Shown: one piece after another, positions 12,614 to 21,254 of the stretch
How positions within the stretch are numbered: the first letter of the stretch is position 1
Layout of the letters: every line of letters begins with the position of its first letter
Made by a program: the position numbers and the translations under genes
Notes under the pieces: generated by a model
What the model was told of the DNA's origin: nothing
Database searches by the model: none
Seen by the model: only the letters and a program-made list of their open reading frames with translations
IMG/VR virus record: IMGVR_UViG_3300020411_000944
Span: 1 to 22,846 of that record
Strand: one strand, 5' to 3'
DNA from: a virus
Length of the DNA stretch: 22,846 nt

Positions 12614-14953
12614 TTAACAAAAAAAGTAAGTGGATTCAATTACTGACTCAGGTTTAAGGTCGCCAATAATCGGTGGTTCAGTTTCCGCACCTATCTGGTT
12701 AGCGAAATCTGTTAGGTAATCATGCTCTGCGAACAGGTGCATGTATTTCTCTCTGACAATTTTAGATAACTCAGTCATATCAGTAGCTCTACATAAGACA
12801 CTATCATGTATCAAAGCTATTGGATTGTTAAAGTCTAAAGCTGATAGACATAAAAGAGAAGCGTCTAATGAATGTATAAGATTAGGGGCAGTAGCAGCCT
12901 TATGTCTAGCTTTATCTACCGTCCCTGTATCTCCAGTAGACACCCTCATATTACATTGACCTAAGACTTGTAAGGTTATACGTTCATATTCTTTCTTGAA
13001 TATCTGTTGAGATACAATGAAACCTGATGGTGTTACCCACTCAAGTTCAGTAGCTCCACGTTTAATCGCTTTACTTACCTCATCTTCTATCCATTTCATA
13101 ACCCTCATAGGGCCAGGTACTATGACATTCATAGCATCTCTAACAGCTTTAACTGTTTGAGTTAAATCTTCCTTATCAATCTCTATATCCTTATCCTTTA
13201 AAGCATCCCTGATGTACGTCCTATTAGAGAATGGCTTTGCATTGTATGGTATCGTCATTACTGTACGCTTTGTACATTTACGATCCCAGTCAGGGCGTAG
13301 CTTTAGAGGTATATTTGGTTTAGATGTTTCAGCTATTACTTTATAAGCATCTTGCGGCTTATCTGATGGTAATACATTAACAAGTTGAGCTGTTGATTTA
13401 TCTTTAGCGAGACCTGCTAGTATTTGTAAACCACTACATGTAGCGTCTATAGCTATAGGTAAGCCAGTGCTAATTCGATCTCTCTTTATAACACAATGAT
13501 ACATTTCGTCACATGCTGCAAGGAATTGCCACGGTTCCTCAGCTCCCTCCCATAAAGGTAGGTTATCTATAGGATCTGTAGCTATTAATTCTATTTCATG
13601 CTCTGATCTGTATGTCCAACTAAGACGATCATCAAGCGTCTCTTTATCTAGACCAAATGTAGTAGCAACTTGAAACCTTATCCATCTCTCTGCTTCCTCA
13701 TCCATGAAGGATTCATCAGCGAAACGAATAAGACTCTTACCCCAGTCGGTGTCTTGAGGTGTTAGGAATGCAGGTATAGGGTAGATCCGACCTCGGTAAT
13801 CAAATGACCACGGAATATAGAACTTTTCTTTATCCTTAAAGCGTTCTACTGTTTCCATAGTCATCCTTGTACGACATGACTTCTTAAATTCCTGTGCCAT
13901 TAGGTTTCTAACCTCAGACACTTTCCTTCTCCATGTCTTCCTTGACTCAGCATTCTCTGCTATGTCATAAGGTTTGGGTGGTAGATCGTAATTACATATA
14001 GGTTGAAATTTACCCACACTCCTACCCATTGACTGAAGTATTTCAGACACCTTAACAGTCAATGGGTTCAGGGTATAAGCAACCTTTTGTATTTTGTTAA
14101 GGAACTTAAAAGGTTTTTCTCCCTGTATACATGACGACTCAGACCTACGAACCATATCATGACCACGCATGATCTCATTAAGCAAGTAACCACCTGGCTT
14201 TTCAGGTGTCCAGTCATTCGGCTCAATCAACATAGGCCAAGCTAATGGACTGAATAATTCAGCATTATACATGACCTGATCTTTGATAGCCATGAACTCA
14301 GCTGTAGGTACTACGTAACTGTTCTTCTTCCTACCCTTATAGATAATCTGTTTCTCAAACCATTTACTTGTGTCTATGATACAGCTAAGTAACCAACCTC
14401 CTAGCTTAACTCTATTAGCCCTACCCCATGTCGTCCATTGTTGTACCTTATATCTATTCATTAAGGTTTGTATTACTACAATCTTTTGATCTGTACCTAT
14501 GGATTTATGCCAGTAGTTCTTCTTAAGAGTGTTAAGCAGCCCAGGTGCATGTCTTTCATAATGTCTCATCTGACATTCATTCTCTACACCTTTGCCAATA
14601 GCATCACATATATTCTGTATCTGATTACTATCTTCTTTATGGCTAAAGACTTTATCTATTGTTATCTTACATGCTATAGCTGCAGCCGCAAGTGGTTCAA
14701 TGTCAGCTAAGTATTGTTTAATCTCCTTGAATGATTGACCAGTATGACCTTTATGTATTCGTAAATTAGTTTCTTTGATTCTTTCTACTACTAAAGGTAG
14801 TAAAGCATCAATGGTTGTTACTCCATACACAGAAGCTGAAGCATACTCTTTATCTTCAAGGTTTTTAGTATTGTCTCTTAGACGTTTTAATCCTTGAGCA
14901 ATTGCATCACGTTCGTGGTTGATTTGCTCATCTATTTGAGCAGGTGTTGGCAT
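12614..14953 (-). CDS. Phage single-subunit DNA-directed RNA polymerase, T7 gp1-like
   Basis: The 779-residue protein contains the T7 RNA polymerase motifs: FDYRGRIYPIP (residues 384-394, active-site DxxGR-like region), motif A AIDATCSGLQ (D503; T7 D537), motif B TKRTVMTIPYNAKPF (K562 and Y570; T7 K631 and Y639) and motif C ALIHDSVL (D717; T7 D812), preceded by IHSLDASLL. It is about 100 residues shorter than T7's 883, mostly in the N-terminal and loop regions, as in other cyanophage enzymes. It transcribes the phage's middle and late genes; no phage promoter consensus could be recognised. Tyr570 is the 2'-OH discriminator. Start ATG overlaps the preceding small gene stop (TAATG). Confidence 0.97.
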   Translation of the reverse strand: MPTPAQIDEQINHERDAIAQGLKRLRDNTKNLEDKEYASASVYGVTTIDALLPLVVERIKETNLRIHKGHTGQSFKEIKQYLADIEPLAAAAIACKITIDKVFSHKEDSNQIQNICDAIGKGVENECQMRHYERHAPGLLNTLKKNYWHKSIGTDQKIVVIQTLMNRYKVQQWTTWGRANRVKLGGWLLSCIIDTSKWFEKQIIYKGRKKNSYVVPTAEFMAIKDQVMYNAELFSPLAWPMLIEPNDWTPEKPGGYLLNEIMRGHDMVRRSESSCIQGEKPFKFLNKIQKVAYTLNPLTVKVSEILQSMGRSVGKFQPICNYDLPPKPYDIAENAESRKTWRRKVSEVRNLMAQEFKKSCRTRMTMETVERFKDKEKFYIPWSFDYRGRIYPIPAFLTPQDTDWGKSLIRFADESFMDEEAERWIRFQVATTFGLDKETLDDRLSWTYRSEHEIELIATDPIDNLPLWEGAEEPWQFLAACDEMYHCVIKRDRISTGLPIAIDATCSGLQILAGLAKDKSTAQLVNVLPSDKPQDAYKVIAETSKPNIPLKLRPDWDRKCTKRTVMTIPYNAKPFSNRTYIRDALKDKDIEIDKEDLTQTVKAVRDAMNVIVPGPMRVMKWIEDEVSKAIKRGATELEWVTPSGFIVSQQIFKKEYERITLQVLGQCNMRVSTGDTGTVDKARHKAATAPNLIHSLDASLLCLSALDFNNPIALIHDSVLCRATDMTELSKIVREKYMHLFAEHDYLTDFANQIGAETEPPIIGDLKPESVIESTYFFC

Positions 14954-15973: not shown

Positions 15974-16015
15974 GAGTCCCTCATCCAACCCACGTATGGG
16001 CTGGAGGAGAGAGTC
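15974..16015 (-). ncRNA. Structured intergenic hairpin HP1 (paralogue of HP2)
   Basis: Minus-strand RNA: a 5' arm GACTCTCTCCTCCAGCCC, a 6-nt loop ATACGT, and a 3' arm GGGTTGGATGAGGGACTC. It forms 16 pairs with mismatches at the third and tenth positions of the 5' arm. It begins at the last base of the stop codon of the upstream gene. Compared with HP2, all three arm differences occur at paired positions, and two preserve pairing (C-G to U-A). This supports a conserved RNA structure. A long, nearly perfect helix just after a stop codon is the layout of T7 RNase III sites; processing here is an inference. Confidence 0.75.
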
Positions 16016-16256: not shown

Positions 16257-16274
16257 GAAGGATATGAATCCTTC
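16257..16274 (-). other. Alternative hairpin competing with HP2
   Basis: On the minus strand GAAGGAT pairs with ATCCTTC around a TCAT loop (7 bp). The GAAGGAT arm is also part of the 3' arm of HP2, so the two structures exclude each other. This could be accidental or a switch between a long and a short hairpin. Confidence 0.45.
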
Positions 16275-16305
16275 ATCTAACCCCGAAGGGCTAGAGGAAA
16301 GAATC
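16266..16305 (-). ncRNA. Structured intergenic hairpin HP2 with UUCG loop
   Basis: Minus-strand RNA: 5' arm GATTCTTTCCTCTAGCCC, tetraloop TTCG, 3' arm GGGTTAGATGAAGGATTC. UUCG is a stable loop when closed by C-G. The hairpin starts within the stop codon of the upstream 86-residue gene. It is clearly related to HP1 but differs at compensating positions. No U-tract follows. A processing or stabilising element, e.g. an RNase III site as in T7, is the likeliest role. Confidence 0.75.
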
Positions 16306-16618: not shown

Positions 16619-16643
16619 GGTAATGCAAGCATTGAATGATTAA

Positions 16644-16660
16644 CCACTCTCAGTGAGTGG
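16644..16660 (-). other. Hairpin directly after tRNA-Asp
   Basis: CCACTC pairs with GAGTGG around an ACTGA loop, starting 4 nt after the tRNA discriminator base on the minus strand. It is a likely 3' trailer hairpin of the tRNA precursor. A weak terminator is possible, but only a short U-containing stretch follows. Confidence 0.5.
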
Positions 16661-16663
16661 CAA

Positions 16664-16735
16664 CGGTCCATGCGGGAATTGAACCCGCATTACTAGCGTG
16701 ACAAGCTAGCGTACTAACCATTATACGAATGGACC
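16664..16735 (-). tRNA. tRNA-Asp (anticodon GUC)
   Basis: A complete cloverleaf on the minus strand. Acceptor arms are GGTCCAT and ATGGACC; the D-region is TCGTATAATGGTTAGTAC; the anticodon arm is CTAGC-TTGTCAC-GCTAG with anticodon GTC; the T-arm is GCGGG-TTCAATT-CCCGC. The discriminator is G and no CCA is encoded. It lies between two early protein genes in the same transcription unit, 22 nt after the stop codon at 16758. It reads GAC and GAU codons; GAC is the Asp codon in the enriched CAAGGAC motif of the neighbouring genes. Processing of this tRNA would necessarily cut the early message here. Confidence 0.95.
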
Positions 16736-16757: not shown

Positions 16758-17108
16758 TTATGCTTGGATAGCATAGAGTTCATCGTCTTCAAGTGCATCA
16801 ACACCATCAACAATACTCATAGCTACAAGCTCAATGAATGACCAAGTAACATCGTTCTTATAGCCAGTGATGTTGTTAGAGTTGTTATTCCAAATCTCTT
16901 CAACAACATCATCACCTAATGTGTCAGTGATGTACTCGATCATCTCATCTTCATACTTATCAAAGAAAGATAGAGTGTCCTTGTAATAGATGTGGTCATG
17001 TGCCACACCTGATACGCAGCCATGCTCTACTATTTCTTTACATGTTTCATAATCGTAAGTGTCCTTGATTACATCATAGGCACTTGATAATCCGATGTTT
17101 AATTGCAT
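16758..17108 (-). CDS. Strongly acidic early protein (116 aa), Ocr-sized
   Basis: A 116-residue protein with 26 Asp/Glu against 5 Lys and no Arg (net about -21). It contains EHGCVSGVAHDHIYYKDTL and FFDKYEDEMIEYITD. The Gly-Cys-Val-Ser-Gly...Tyr-Tyr-x-Asp-Thr pattern recurs in many phage proteins of unknown function (I believe catalogued as DUF7222; not verified). Length, charge and early position are like T7 Ocr (117 residues), a DNA mimic that blocks restriction enzymes, but the sequences are not alike, and a shared fold is not shown. It has two CAAGGAC motifs (IKDT, YKDT). It lies between the tRNA-like element at 17149 and tRNA-Asp. Confidence 0.78.
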   Translation of the reverse strand: MQLNIGLSSAYDVIKDTYDYETCKEIVEHGCVSGVAHDHIYYKDTLSFFDKYEDEMIEYITDTLGDDVVEEIWNNNSNNITGYKNDVTWSFIELVAMSIVDGVDALEDDELYAIQA

Positions 17109-17131: not shown

Positions 17132-17147
17132 TTACCCTTATGGGTAA
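17132..17147 (-). other. Hairpin following tRNA-like element D
   Basis: TTACCC pairs with GGGTAA around an ATAA loop on the minus strand, directly after the acceptor-like 3' strand of element D and before the acidic early gene. It could be a trailer hairpin or protect the 5' end of a processed message. Confidence 0.5.
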
Positions 17148-17148
17148 G

Positions 17149-17194
17149 AGCTAGGCAGGGACTCGAACCCTGCTGTAGTCCTTGACTACTAGCT
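17149..17194 (-). ncRNA. tRNA-like element D (minimal, no D-arm or true anticodon arm)
   Basis: Minus-strand RNA of 46 nt. The acceptor-like stem is AGCTAG/CTAGCT (6 bp). It is followed by an internal hairpin TAGTC-AAG-GACTA, a 3-nt linker CAG, and a canonical T-arm CAGGG-TTCGAGT-CCCTG, then one base and the 3' acceptor strand. The T-loop has the UUCRANY pattern, and the T-stem closes with the invariant G-C pair. It starts 7 nt after the stop codon of the 90-residue gene. A normal tRNA would need about 25 more nt, so it is not a decoding tRNA. It offers the coaxial acceptor/T-stem recognised by RNase P and tRNase Z. Confidence 0.75.
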
Positions 17195-17201
17195 TATTTG
17201 T

Positions 17202-17474
17202 TTATACAAATGATGGTAACTGAGGACCGAAGTCATACTGTTGTGAACCGTATCCAACTAACTCAGTGCGGTTAGCCTTGACGCAGTTGTTGTTAACCCA
17301 GAAACCTAGTGATACATCAGGGTTGAACAATACATTTGCTATTGCTCTAGCTGATACATTCTCATACTCGTACTCATATCCATTAGTGAATCTTACTTGT
17401 GCTTTCCTTGCAAGCAAGTCAACCTTAAGTAAGTCAATAGCAGCTGATGTACGTGTTGGAACTGTGATAAACAT
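17202..17474 (-). CDS. KTSC-like early protein (90 aa)
   Basis: The 90-residue protein shows the layout of the KTSC domain: STSSAAI-like start (TSAAIDLLKVDL), then VRFTNGYEYEYENVSARAI and SLGFWVNNNCVK. KTSC is a small all-beta domain found alone in phage and bacterial proteins or attached to lysyl-tRNA synthetases and other enzymes; its role is unknown. The C-terminus is Gly/Gln/Tyr-rich. The match is by eye and weak in the first 20 residues. The gene lies between tRNA-like elements C and D. No Shine-Dalgarno sequence is visible. Confidence 0.7.
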   Translation of the reverse strand: MFITVPTRTSAAIDLLKVDLLARKAQVRFTNGYEYEYENVSARAIANVLFNPDVSLGFWVNNNCVKANRTELVGYGSQQYDFGPQLPSFV

Positions 17475-17498
17475 AATGAATGAAGTTAAGTGTACAAT

Positions 17499-17517
17499 TT
17501 GGGATGCGATATCCCAA
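17499..17517 (-). other. Hairpin following tRNA-like element C
   Basis: TTGGGAT pairs with ATCCCAA around ATCGC (7 bp) on the minus strand. It lies 2 nt after element C and 25 nt before the ATG at 17474. Its position is like the hairpin after element D. Confidence 0.55.
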
Positions 17518-17518
17518 T

Positions 17519-17559
17519 ACCTGACTGAGGAGTTGAACCTCAGTTAATACCCATCAGGT
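17519..17559 (-). ncRNA. tRNA-like element C (smallest of the series)
   Basis: Minus-strand RNA of 41 nt. The acceptor-like stem is ACCTGA/TCAGGT (6 bp). An 11-nt linker follows without a clear internal hairpin, then the T-arm TGAGG-TTCAACT-CCTCA. The loop fits UUCRANY, and the T-stem can be extended by a C-G pair. It begins at the last base of the stop codon of the 59-residue gene. It is in effect an acceptor/T-stem minihelix. Confidence 0.65.
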
Positions 17560-17738
17560 TAAGCACCATTTGTATAGGAACCCATTGTAGTTTGGCTCCC
17601 ATTTAGTGCACGGAAGATAACCTCGGCGTATCCGTACTCTTCGGATAAGTCAAGGCATAATGACCAGCAGTCATCGAGCTTAGCAAATGCTGTATTCTCG
17701 AAAGGTGCTGCAGGGCAGCGGACTTCATACTTAAACAT
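17559..17738 (-). CDS. Unknown early protein (59 aa)
   Basis: A 59-residue protein MFKYEVRCPAAPFENTAFA with a helical middle (DDCWSLCLDLSEEYG) and AEVIFRALNGSQTTMGSYT. The ATG at 17738 is used; a longer frame would start at TTG 17756, inside the leader between tRNA-like element B and this gene. Two of its three Cys lie in DDCWSLC, but no CxxC pair suggests zinc binding. I recognise no family. Its stop overlaps element C. Confidence 0.7.
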   Translation of the reverse strand: MFKYEVRCPAAPFENTAFAKLDDCWSLCLDLSEEYGYAEVIFRALNGSQTTMGSYTNGA

Positions 17739-17757
17739 GATAATATAATTGAACAAT

Positions 17758-17808
17758 GAAAGAGTGAGGTTTCGAACCTCAGCATCACGCTACACACTGT
17801 ACTCTTCC
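17758..17808 (-). ncRNA. tRNA-like element B (overlaps the end of the upstream gene)
   Basis: Minus-strand RNA of 51 nt. The acceptor-like stem is GGAAGAG/CTCTTTC (7 bp with one G-U). A short TACA-GTG-TGTA hairpin resembles a D-arm, then 9 nt (GCGTGATGC) replace the anticodon arm, then T-arm TGAGG-TTCGAAA-CCTCA. The 5' acceptor strand is encoded in the last codons of the upstream 69-residue gene, and its TAG stop lies inside the internal hairpin, so cleavage at the 5' end would remove the stop codon. Confidence 0.7.
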
Positions 17809-17999
17809 CAGTATTCCTGAAGCTCGTCAGGATCTGTGATAGTCTCGGAGTCTACGTAGTAGTGAGCACCGAGTCCAGATGAACTAGGCCATCCACGTCC
17901 TTGTAAGGACTGGAGAGCTGCTAATACAGCTGGATCTTTAGCTGCCTTGTCATTGACAAGAGCGCAGCCATTGAACATTGGAAACAATTCTGTTTGCAT
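17790..17999 (-). CDS. First early gene: unknown protein (69 aa)
   Basis: A 69-residue protein MQTELFPMFNGCALVNDKAA, then AVLAALQSLQGRGWPSS and an acidic C-terminus (DSETITDPDELQEYWEEYSV). I chose ATG 17999 because the longer frame starting at 18080 runs through tRNA-like element A and is not protein-like. A hairpin GTCCTT-AC-AAGGAC is embedded in the coding region (17897-17910), including the CAAGGAC motif. It is the first gene after the putative host promoter, where T7 encodes anti-host proteins. No family recognised. Confidence 0.7.
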   Translation of the reverse strand: MQTELFPMFNGCALVNDKAAKDPAVLAALQSLQGRGWPSSSGLGAHYYVDSETITDPDELQEYWEEYSV

Positions 18000-18017
18000 A
18001 ATAAATAAAGTAAACAA

Positions 18018-18066
18018 AACCCAGTCAAGGACTCGAACCTTGATGAACGCCGATGCATTCTGGGCT
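18018..18066 (-). ncRNA. tRNA-like element A (leader of the first early gene)
   Basis: Minus-strand RNA of 49 nt. Acceptor-like stem AGCCCAG/CTGGGTT (7 bp, one G-U), internal hairpin AATGC-ATCG-GCGTT, linker CAT, T-arm CAAGG-TTCGAGT-CCTTG, one base, then the 3' acceptor strand. Architecture is the same as element D although the stems differ in sequence. A U-rich trailer follows for about 18 nt to the ATG at 17999. It lies in the 5' leader of the early transcript, so 3' processing would create the start of the first message. Confidence 0.75.
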
Positions 18067-18214: not shown

Positions 18215-18251
18215 AGTTCTCTTAGTTGATTCTGATTGAATCTTGAGAACT
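18215..18251 (-). repeat. Nested hairpin near the start of the early transcript
   Basis: AGTTCTC pairs with GAGAACT, and within it GATTC pairs with GAATC around a 5-nt loop. A second small hairpin CTCTC/GAGAG follows at 18252-18271. They lie 40-80 nt after the putative start point at about 18291. They may protect the 5' end of the early RNA or be processed by RNase III. Confidence 0.55.
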
Positions 18252-18298
18252 CTCTCACCCTCTAACGAGAGTTCGAAAGATCTCAATCTTCAAGAATC

Positions 18299-18327
18299 AA
18301 TCTACATCCGACCGATCCACAAGTCAA
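18299..18327 (-). promoter_or_regulatory. Putative host sigma-70-type promoter for the early genes
   Basis: On the minus strand a -35 TTGACT (18322-18327; 5 of 6 matches to TTGACA) is followed by a 17-nt spacer and a -10 TAGATT (18299-18304; 4 of 6 matches to TATAAT). Transcription would start near 18291 and run through the hairpins and tRNA-like elements into the early genes. A host-type promoter is expected because the phage polymerase is itself encoded in this unit. I found no stronger candidate in the 18.1-18.7 kb region. Confidence 0.55.
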
Positions 18328-19511: not shown

Positions 19512-21254
19512 CTAAACCCAGGTATAGACTGAGGACTTATTGTTGTCTATTCTATTAGCCATATCTCTTTGTTCTTTATTCATTCCTAACACTAAGTGGT
19601 CTGCAGAGGCTTGAGGGTTGTCTAAATAGTCTTGTAGCATAGATTGCCATTCTTCTGCTTTACGTGCCTTCACGGCCTCGTGAGCACTGATAGAGAGGGC
19701 ATCTGTAAAATACTTAACCCCTTGTGCAAGACAATCTAATCTGTCATCATGTCTTATTGCACCTTTCTCTCTACACATCCTACCCATTTGGTAGAATAGC
19801 ATGTACATGAGTCTCTTTTCAGGAGCTTCATCTTTGTTAGAGGCGTAATCCCACTCTATAACTTTTTTGTCTACTACTAACCTGTGTTGGTTCATGACAG
19901 GTTCTAGAGAGTCTATTATTCTGTCTTCTTTTCTAACGTTAGCTCTAACTTCTTCTACATCTATGTGTTGGCCTGTCATCTGTAGATGTTTTTTAAATAA
20001 TTCACAGACAATACCATCACCGAAGTTAGTTTCAATTACAAGTTTAGTAACTCCATATTTTCTACATCCTCTAAGTATATTGAGCAAGGTATCGTCAGAG
20101 TATCCGTCCCTATACGCACGCATTTCATGCAGAAAGAGGAATCCATTCTTTTGGGATATAAAAGCTGCTGCTGTTTCATCCGTTCCTCGACCCGACGGAT
20201 CGACGGAGCATATAGTTTCGCTATACTCTGTCCACTCTCCTTGAAGCTGCATCGGAGAATAAAAATAATCTCCTGGTAAGCCGACAGTGGGTAATTCTTT
20301 AATGACGTTTTTGGGATCTGAGCACCAGATAATTTGATCGGGAGCAGACTTAGGGTTAACACTGGTGACAATGAGATCAGCCATCTTAAGAGGGAATTTC
20401 TCTGCATCACTTAAACTTGTATCTAATTGGAACTGAAGCATGTAGTTACTCCGTCCCATAGCAGCTTCACGTTCTAATAGGTCGTCATTAGCAAATCTAT
20501 CAGGGTCGGTGACTTCCCATTCATCAGCACCTTGATCTAGATCCTCTTGTATCTGTGGTGCTAGAAGTCCTTCGTATTGACTAAGTTTGTCTTTTCTTGG
20601 ATATCTTGAGGGCCAAACAAAGGGACGGTAGTTACGCTCAGCCAGCTTACGATAAACAGTAAAAACAGTCTGAGGAGTCCCAAGGTAGCAAATACGGCTA
20701 TCGTTTTTGGGGGTAAGGATACTTTCTGCTTCCGTACAGAGTTGAAGAAGTTTCTCACGCATCAACTCCGTCATACTGTTTCCTGGTACTTCTATATCGT
20801 CTAGAACCATGAGGTCTGCACGAGAACCAGTTAGTTGCCCAGTGATACCAACGCTTTTTACGCTTGGAGCCTGATGAGGCGAGCACTGTACGTCGAAGGA
20901 TATACGACTCCACCTTGCCTCGTCGCTTTTTGGTTGTAGGTGTTGTAACCACGGTGTTTCAATAATTAGTTTCTGTAGGAAGATTGACATGTTATCTGCA
21001 CGTTCTTTAGATGCAGATATAATCATTATCTTTCTTTCTGGGTCTTTAAATAGTGTCCATAAGACAAAAGCACCTGTAATCCATGATTTACCGACTCCTC
21101 GGAAAGCTTGGATCTGTAGACGCTTTGGTCCGTGTTGTAAGTAGTCTGCAATAGCAAACTGTGCTCTTGTAGGAGGGGGTAGATCAAGCTGTTCCCATAA
21201 TGCGGTCAGAAACAGCTTGAAATCGTCCTGTAAGGCCTCTAAAGGGTTAGTCAT
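19512..21254 (-). CDS. Terminase large subunit, T7 gp19-like
   Basis: The 580-residue protein has an N-terminal packaging ATPase with Walker A AFRGVGKSW (residues 50-58) and Walker B LMVLDDIE (148-155), and a C-terminal RNase H-like nuclease with D352 (SVDPSGRG), E408 (VIETNFGDG) and a final acidic site HDDRLDCLAQG. It cuts concatemeric phage DNA and pumps it through the portal. T7 gp19 is 586 residues, so it is full length. It begins 10 nt after the preceding unknown gene. The small terminase subunit is not evident in this window and may be beyond the right edge or highly divergent. Confidence 0.96.
   Translation of the reverse strand: MTNPLEALQDDFKLFLTALWEQLDLPPPTRAQFAIADYLQHGPKRLQIQAFRGVGKSWITGAFVLWTLFKDPERKIMIISASKERADNMSIFLQKLIIETPWLQHLQPKSDEARWSRISFDVQCSPHQAPSVKSVGITGQLTGSRADLMVLDDIEVPGNSMTELMREKLLQLCTEAESILTPKNDSRICYLGTPQTVFTVYRKLAERNYRPFVWPSRYPRKDKLSQYEGLLAPQIQEDLDQGADEWEVTDPDRFANDDLLEREAAMGRSNYMLQFQLDTSLSDAEKFPLKMADLIVTSVNPKSAPDQIIWCSDPKNVIKELPTVGLPGDYFYSPMQLQGEWTEYSETICSVDPSGRGTDETAAAFISQKNGFLFLHEMRAYRDGYSDDTLLNILRGCRKYGVTKLVIETNFGDGIVCELFKKHLQMTGQHIDVEEVRANVRKEDRIIDSLEPVMNQHRLVVDKKVIEWDYASNKDEAPEKRLMYMLFYQMGRMCREKGAIRHDDRLDCLAQGVKYFTDALSISAHEAVKARKAEEWQSMLQDYLDNPQASADHLVLGMNKEQRDMANRIDNNKSSVYTWV

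Follow-up and report, generated by a model that had tools for sequence, protein, structure and literature searches.

Five structures in the early genes

The DNA considered here, called the window, is a stretch of 22,846 nucleotides (nt; positions 1 to 22,846 of IMG/VR virus record IMGVR_UViG_3300020411_000944) from an uncultured T7-like cyanophage, and the subject is a series of short elements resembling transfer RNA (tRNA) among its early genes. The phage's RNA polymerase gene lies on the minus strand at 12614-14953, and its product is 68% identical to the polymerases of S-RIP1 and S-CBP1. The minus strand is also the coding strand of the early genes, including gene 1 (17790-17999; 69 amino acids), gene 2 (17559-17738; 59 amino acids, phrog_17176), gene 3 (17202-17474; 90 amino acids, KTSC-like by a weak Pfam match, phrog_7365) and gene 4 (16758-17108; 116 amino acids, DUF7222).

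Four tRNA-like elements, A to D, had been picked out in a preliminary description of this DNA. All four are found on the minus strand, within 1 nt of where it placed them, with the T-loops it read (UUCGAGU, UUCGAAA, UUCAACU and UUCGAGU, respectively) and with stems that indeed differ in sequence from one element to the next. Element A (18019-18065) precedes the first early gene. It consists of an acceptor stem GCCCAG/CTGGGT, a middle hairpin AATGC-atcg-GCGTT and a T-arm TCAAGG-UUCGAGU-CCTTGA, giving 6+6 base pairs (bp). Element B (17758-17808) has the acceptor GGAAGAG/CTCTTTC, whose 5' strand lies within the end of gene 1, and the T-arm TGAGG-UUCGAAA-CCTCA; it can be read as 7+5 or 8+4 bp. Element C (17519-17559) is the minimal form, ACCTGA/TCAGGT with the T-arm CTGAGG-UUCAACU-CCTCAG (6+6 bp). 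Element D (17149-17194) has AGCTAG/CTAGCT, a middle hairpin TAGTC-aag-GACTA and the T-arm GCAGGG-UUCGAGU-CCCTGC (6+6 bp). In context, nearly all pairs of A and D have a pairing probability of about 0.8 to 1.0.

In three respects the preliminary description is refined. It had the elements lacking full D- and anticodon arms; there is a middle hairpin of 5 bp in A and D and a weak one in B, and only C is without any. It had B to D beginning at, just inside or a few nt after the preceding stop codon; exactly, B begins 16 nt before that stop, C at its last base and D 7 nt after it. Finally, the series does not stop at four: a true tRNA-Asp (GUC) at 16664-16735, minus strand, is its fifth structure. 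A scan of the whole window for 12-bp structures returns just these five, all on the minus strand. The tRNA-Asp exceeds the threshold of the Rfam tRNA family (RF00005) and is the only window structure to do so; A to D give no RF00005 match even at E values up to 10, and no other Rfam family is above threshold for the window elements.

Two ordinary identities can be put aside. Intrinsic terminators were called by a scan at the T-arms of A and B, yet what comes next is acceptor sequence without a real run of U. Integration sites are set aside because the elements are unlike one another in sequence.

Pairing, length and distribution of the elements

Relatives of early genes 1 to 4 were taken from IMG/VR and from cultured cyanopodoviruses, and their loci were scanned for a 5-bp T-stem with G-C closure, a tRNA-type loop of 7 nt and an acceptor of at least 6 pairs. 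The coding strand gave 161 matches, the opposite strand 1 and reversed sequence 0. A scan that demands pairing will of course find it, and this selection bias was met in three ways: by a rescan with no acceptor requirement, by orthologous slots and by the middle arm, which played no part in selection. The rescan gave 138 T-arms on the coding strand, 9 on the opposite strand and 16 in reversed sequence, the commonest total helix length being 12-13 bp. As a negative control, a covariance model of the elements was run over loci of other phages with gene 2 alone in common, and gave one weak match in 455 kilobases (kb). A chance origin of the elements is excluded.

A length is conserved. Statistics were taken over 65 distinct short elements, and the helix from the T-loop to the end of the acceptor has 12 pairs, the same as the 7+5 of tRNA, whatever the point at which the 5' strand is broken. 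That point wanders, falling after pair 4, 5, 6 or 7. The parse partly fixes pairs 1-11, while pairs 12-14 are free of it: pair 12 is formed in 91% of elements, pair 13 in 29% and pair 14 in 28%, where composition alone predicts 57%, 24% and 27%. Sequence and branch point therefore drift while the distance stays constant. The elements thus have the 12 stacked acceptor and T-stem pairs and the 7-nt T-loop that characterize tRNA. For this stack RNase P is described as a rigid ruler; RNase Z holds the elbow in a clamp and seemingly measures distance too (PMC4919913).

Then there is the covariation. In a set of 11 diverse 46-nt elements, 15 of the 17 pairs show changes on both sides, and the covariation score is 1.03, compared with 0.24 for shuffled alignments (reached in 0/500) and at most 0.18 for slid ones. 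Their middle hairpin was no criterion of selection; its pairing reaches 92.7%, and 4 of its 5 pairs have changed on both sides. For the slot that precedes gene 3, relatives were chosen by protein rather than by fold, and the answer is the same. An element passes a strict test in 22 of 30, and at least two further relatives (L043, L050) have a slightly degenerate one; in the aligned orthologous elements every pair is formed (100%), both sides have changed in 7 of the 12 pairs, and here a T-helix of 7 pairs and an acceptor of 5 again make 12. Element B of one related locus (L001) carries a compensatory acceptor change, GGAAGAAT/ATTCTTTC, within coding sequence.

The preliminary description had called for a covariance search of cyanophage genomes, and here the outcome is favorable: the stems covary and the model detects elements in relatives. 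Within the window it gives E values of 2e-8 for A and 5e-4 for C. Over whole genomes it finds elements in P-SSP7, S-TIP37, P-SSP10, S-RIP2, NATL1A-7, Syn5, P-SSP2 and S-CBP3 and a partial match in SS120-1. Early elements stand at P-SSP7 602-648, S-TIP37 986-1033 and 1441-1486, P-SSP10 35976-36021 and 35282-35328 (both minus strand) and Syn5 2699-2746. It finds none in T7 or in Pelagibacter phage HTVC109P; the model also misses forms that a descriptor scan detects in P-GSP1 and S-CBP2. On the coding strand, 55 elements (including those of tRNA length) precede the RNA polymerase gene in 83 loci anchored on the polymerase, with 0 inside that gene and 0 in the 259 kb downstream of it; the opposite strand has 2.

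There is a second slot, just upstream of the major capsid gene, occupied by tRNA-like elements in P-SSP7 (20633-20677), S-TIP37 (20517-20559) and Syn5 (19841-19883) and, in the corresponding stretch, in P-SSP2 (27143-27187). After these comes a structured stretch that is conserved and that reads GAGGATACC...GCCGTC...GACGGTGGGA in three phages out of the four. Glutamine-II riboswitch aptamers above the Rfam threshold precede the late element at P-SSP7 20522-20575 (locus L403, 23-76) and P-SSP2 27034-27087 (locus L404, 35-88). In the early region of P-SSP7, at about 708-965, a gene resembling window gene 3 (KTSC-like) is apparently present, though unannotated in the published genome, and is flanked by two tRNA-like elements.

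What occupies an early slot can change in kind. Relatives hold true tRNA-Asp, tRNA-Gly-like and other tRNAs there, and most of the different true tRNAs in the early region (L361, L373, L376, L384, L389) have a similar trailing hairpin. In L376 (about 560-885) four full tRNA genes stand in tandem upstream of the polymerase gene, and TTTGG follows the last, as in other slots. In four relatives (L044, L046, L047, L048) the slot before gene 3 is taken instead by a long hairpin, GATTCTTTC...GAAGGAYTC. The same family appears on the minus strand after the next genes of the window, at 16266-16305 and 15974-16015. Its form is GAYTC-T-YTC-C ... GAR-GG-AYTC, with symmetric mismatches and a variable inner stem, and the coding strand of the related loci has 53 distinct forms, the other strand 3 matches. 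By their shape, and by analogy with the sites that T7 uses, the long hairpins are candidate RNase III sites.

The 3' side, the stop codons and the probable cutting enzyme

On the 3' side, around the predicted cut, the nucleotides are far from random. At N74, the nucleotide after the discriminator, 64 of 65 elements have T; CCA is encoded in none, and the discriminator N73 is A in 42; all five window structures have TT at N74-75. Host tRNA genes (Prochlorococcus MIT 9201 and Synechococcus RCC307) look much the same, with CCA encoded in 1 of 33 and T at N74 in 27 of 33. RNase Z of Bacillus subtilis acts on precursors that lack CCA, and its activity rises about 200-fold with a U no more than 2 nt after the discriminator (PMC10100781). 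In these sequence features, the absence of CCA and a U so close to the discriminator, the elements resemble bacterial tRNase Z substrates.

Directly beyond the predicted cut there is usually a second structure. A small hairpin begins 0-2 nt past it in 43 of 56 short elements and in 20 of 23 of tRNA length (median z about -3.4), with a stem whose sequence varies freely. On the minus strand of the window, TTGGGAT-atcgc-ATCCCAA (17499-17517) stands directly 3' of element C, at the predicted 5' end of the gene 3 messenger RNA (mRNA); TTACCC-ataa-GGGTAA (17132-17147) directly 3' of D; and CCACTC-actga-GAGTGG (16643-16661) directly 3' of the tRNA-Asp. The predicted leader after the cuts at C and D is about 40 nt, and the start codon lies about 18 nt downstream of A-type elements and of window B. 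The idea that the hairpin is a promoter for the phage polymerase was rejected: hairpins within a single genome have different sequences, and in the loci studied the Syn5 promoter sequence is present at one place only, inside the Syn5 polymerase gene.

I propose that the elements are short tRNA mimics marking cut sites in the polycistronic early transcript, most likely for host tRNase Z, and I would put the probability of this at about three in four. Each element retains the parts that tRNA end-processing enzymes measure: the T-loop, the 12-bp stack, an unpaired N73, U74 and no CCA. Host tRNase Z would cut after N73, making new 5' ends (N74) predicted at 18017, 17756, 17517 and 17147 on the minus strand. 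The upstream message would retain its stop codon and terminate in a folded tRNA-like cap, and the downstream message would begin at U74, usually followed by the small hairpin, which may protect the new end; an AU-rich leader would connect this to the start codon. The stability of both messages might be altered in this way. RNase P might follow with a second cut, on the 5' side, which in most elements would remove the upstream stop and so be a destructive or conditional event.

The choice of enzyme turns on that stop codon. Where an open reading frame ends near a short element, its stop lies inside the element in 39 of 49 cases. A 5' cut by RNase P would leave such an upstream message without a stop, and a cut by tRNase Z would not; it is because the overlap makes the RNase P cut damaging that tRNase Z is preferred as the main enzyme. 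An alternative view is that the damage is the point, that RNase P is the principal enzyme and excises the element, much as tRNAs are excised in mitochondrial punctuation, with or without a later cut by tRNase Z, so that loss of the internal stop creates a non-stop RNA and switches the upstream gene off. The stack of T-stem-loop and acceptor is after all what RNase P measures (PMC4919913), bacterial RNase P tolerates model hairpins made of acceptor and T-stem (PMC4919922), and D and the tRNA-Asp leave the upstream stop codon intact. An efficient cut on active messages is nevertheless difficult to square with the stops lost elsewhere, and the conserved features, U74 and the adjacent hairpin, are on the 3' side; nothing comparable is seen at N-1 (A in 32 of 65). 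I regard a leading role for RNase P as doubtful.

Perhaps nothing is cut at all, and the folds serve passively, shielding the message from nucleases or insulating the translation of neighboring genes. They are stable, they sit at gene borders and a second hairpin comes after them. It is too much to ask of mere stability, however, that it should require a tRNA-type T-loop, an exact length of 12 bp with free sequence, a U at position 74 and exchange with true tRNAs, and passive folds are an improbable explanation. Much less probable still is action in trans, as decoys for tRNA enzymes or for defense systems that sense tRNA: the elements do imitate the elbow and acceptor stem, but they have no anticodon arm, and their fixed placement at early gene borders, together with features that act in cis (the stop overlap, the hairpin, the AU-rich leader), is left unexplained. 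Least credible is that these are functionless relics of phage tRNA genes on the way out. True tRNAs in the early slots of relatives do make an origin from tRNA genes likely, but decay would break pairs, and nearly all are kept by compensatory change, even across phages (Syn5, S-CBP2) whose polymerases are 35-37% identical to that of the window.

Several observations sit badly with cutting by tRNase Z. The main mechanistic objection is that bacterial RNase Z works best on 5' ends already matured by RNase P, its activity falling with a long 5' extension. N73 is C, a less usual discriminator base, in 15 of 65 elements. A-type elements in general, and window B, have no downstream hairpin. The outer helices of B and C have only a moderate in-context pairing probability, about 0.4 for B and about 0.5 for C (0.4-0.55 over the two). 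Finally, the covariance model finds no match in the whole genomes of S-RIP1, 7B11-B, S-CBP1 and S-CBP4, so the elements are not indispensable.

The preliminary description had supposed that host enzymes excise the elements from the early message or, failing that, that the elements are decoys. Its core, putative tRNA-like cut sites punctuating the early message, is well supported by covariation, the 12-bp ruler, U74, the absence of CCA, exchange with tRNAs and confinement to the early region and one late slot. Excision at both ends needs revision in view of the internal stop codons, and a 3' cut by tRNase Z fits better. The decoy idea finds no support.

Early-message maturation and known systems

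RNase III sites between the early genes of T7 divide its early transcript into single-gene mRNAs. A broader idea, which might as easily fail as hold, is that marine T7-like cyanophages have partly replaced this maturation by tRNA mimicry. At gene borders, true tRNAs and RNase III-like hairpins could stand in for the 12-bp cut sites and the reverse, and the stop codon would be built into the fold. A ribosome terminating at a stop inside the element must open the fold, so cutting would depend on translation. Upstream of element A, the leader contains at about 18220-18306 (minus strand) a long imperfect hairpin, conserved with changed stems in relatives (L009, L010), which is a possible RNase III site. 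In eleven related loci (L009, L010, L022, L028, L035, L037, L055, L139, L147, L328, L356) the leader before A carries a CTTGAAAACTnAATA motif resembling the boxA antitermination sites of ribosomal RNA operons. The boxA-like motif CTTGAAAACT occurs in the leaders of several relatives, and its counts in hosts are no better than in the reversed control.

If the proposal is right, then a phage operon is punctuated by a conserved row of tRNA-like cut sites, as is otherwise known in mitochondria, and this may be how the abundant marine cyanopodoviruses mature their early messages. The elements would place the message borders of many early genes, and tRNase Z and RNase P would have in them naturally occurring minimal substrates. 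It may also be that some phage tRNA genes are retained as cut sites and not for decoding. Such maturation is directly testable in culture, with P-SSP7 on MED4 and with Syn5 and S-TIP37 on WH8109.

The search of open-licence literature turned up no earlier description of such a series in phages. The RNase III sites of T7 are alike in role, lying between the early genes of a T7-like phage, and differ in fold and in the predicted enzyme; T7 itself has none of the tRNA-like elements. A host tRNA enzyme does cut RNAs of phage origin: M3 RNA, the C4 antisense RNA of P1 and P7 and the gene 32 mRNA of T4 are RNase P substrates (PMC11143913). Unlike the elements described here, which form a conserved intergenic series, these are regulatory RNAs that stand alone or, in one case, an mRNA. 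Among Rfam families other than tRNA, only mascRNA/menRNA (RF01684) resembles any of the elements, namely D (17.8 bits) and the late element of Syn5 (23.4 bits), both under the curated threshold of 42.5 and D far under it. It too is a short tRNA-like fold with reduced arms beside an RNA end, one that is processed there and predicted here, but it belongs to animal nuclear RNA and is a single element at the 3' end.

The comparison with mitochondrial tRNA punctuation, made in the preliminary description, is a fair one. There too tRNA structures lie between genes as cut sites (PMC4919922), as predicted here, and the window series includes a true tRNA-Asp; the difference is that only one of its five marks is a tRNA, the other four lacking an anticodon. 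The t-elements of plant mitochondria are closer. These are tRNA-like folds at mRNA ends, with no encoded CCA, where cuts by RNase P and RNase Z define the ends of messages (PMC11658184). The phage elements, at which cutting is predicted, are mostly shorter (38-65 nt), come in series within one operon and have a hairpin downstream. Plant t-elements are recognized in part by homology to tRNA genes, which A to D do not have; their resemblance to tRNA is structural only. The other marks of a t-element, position at an mRNA border and a tRNA-like secondary structure, are both found in the phage elements.
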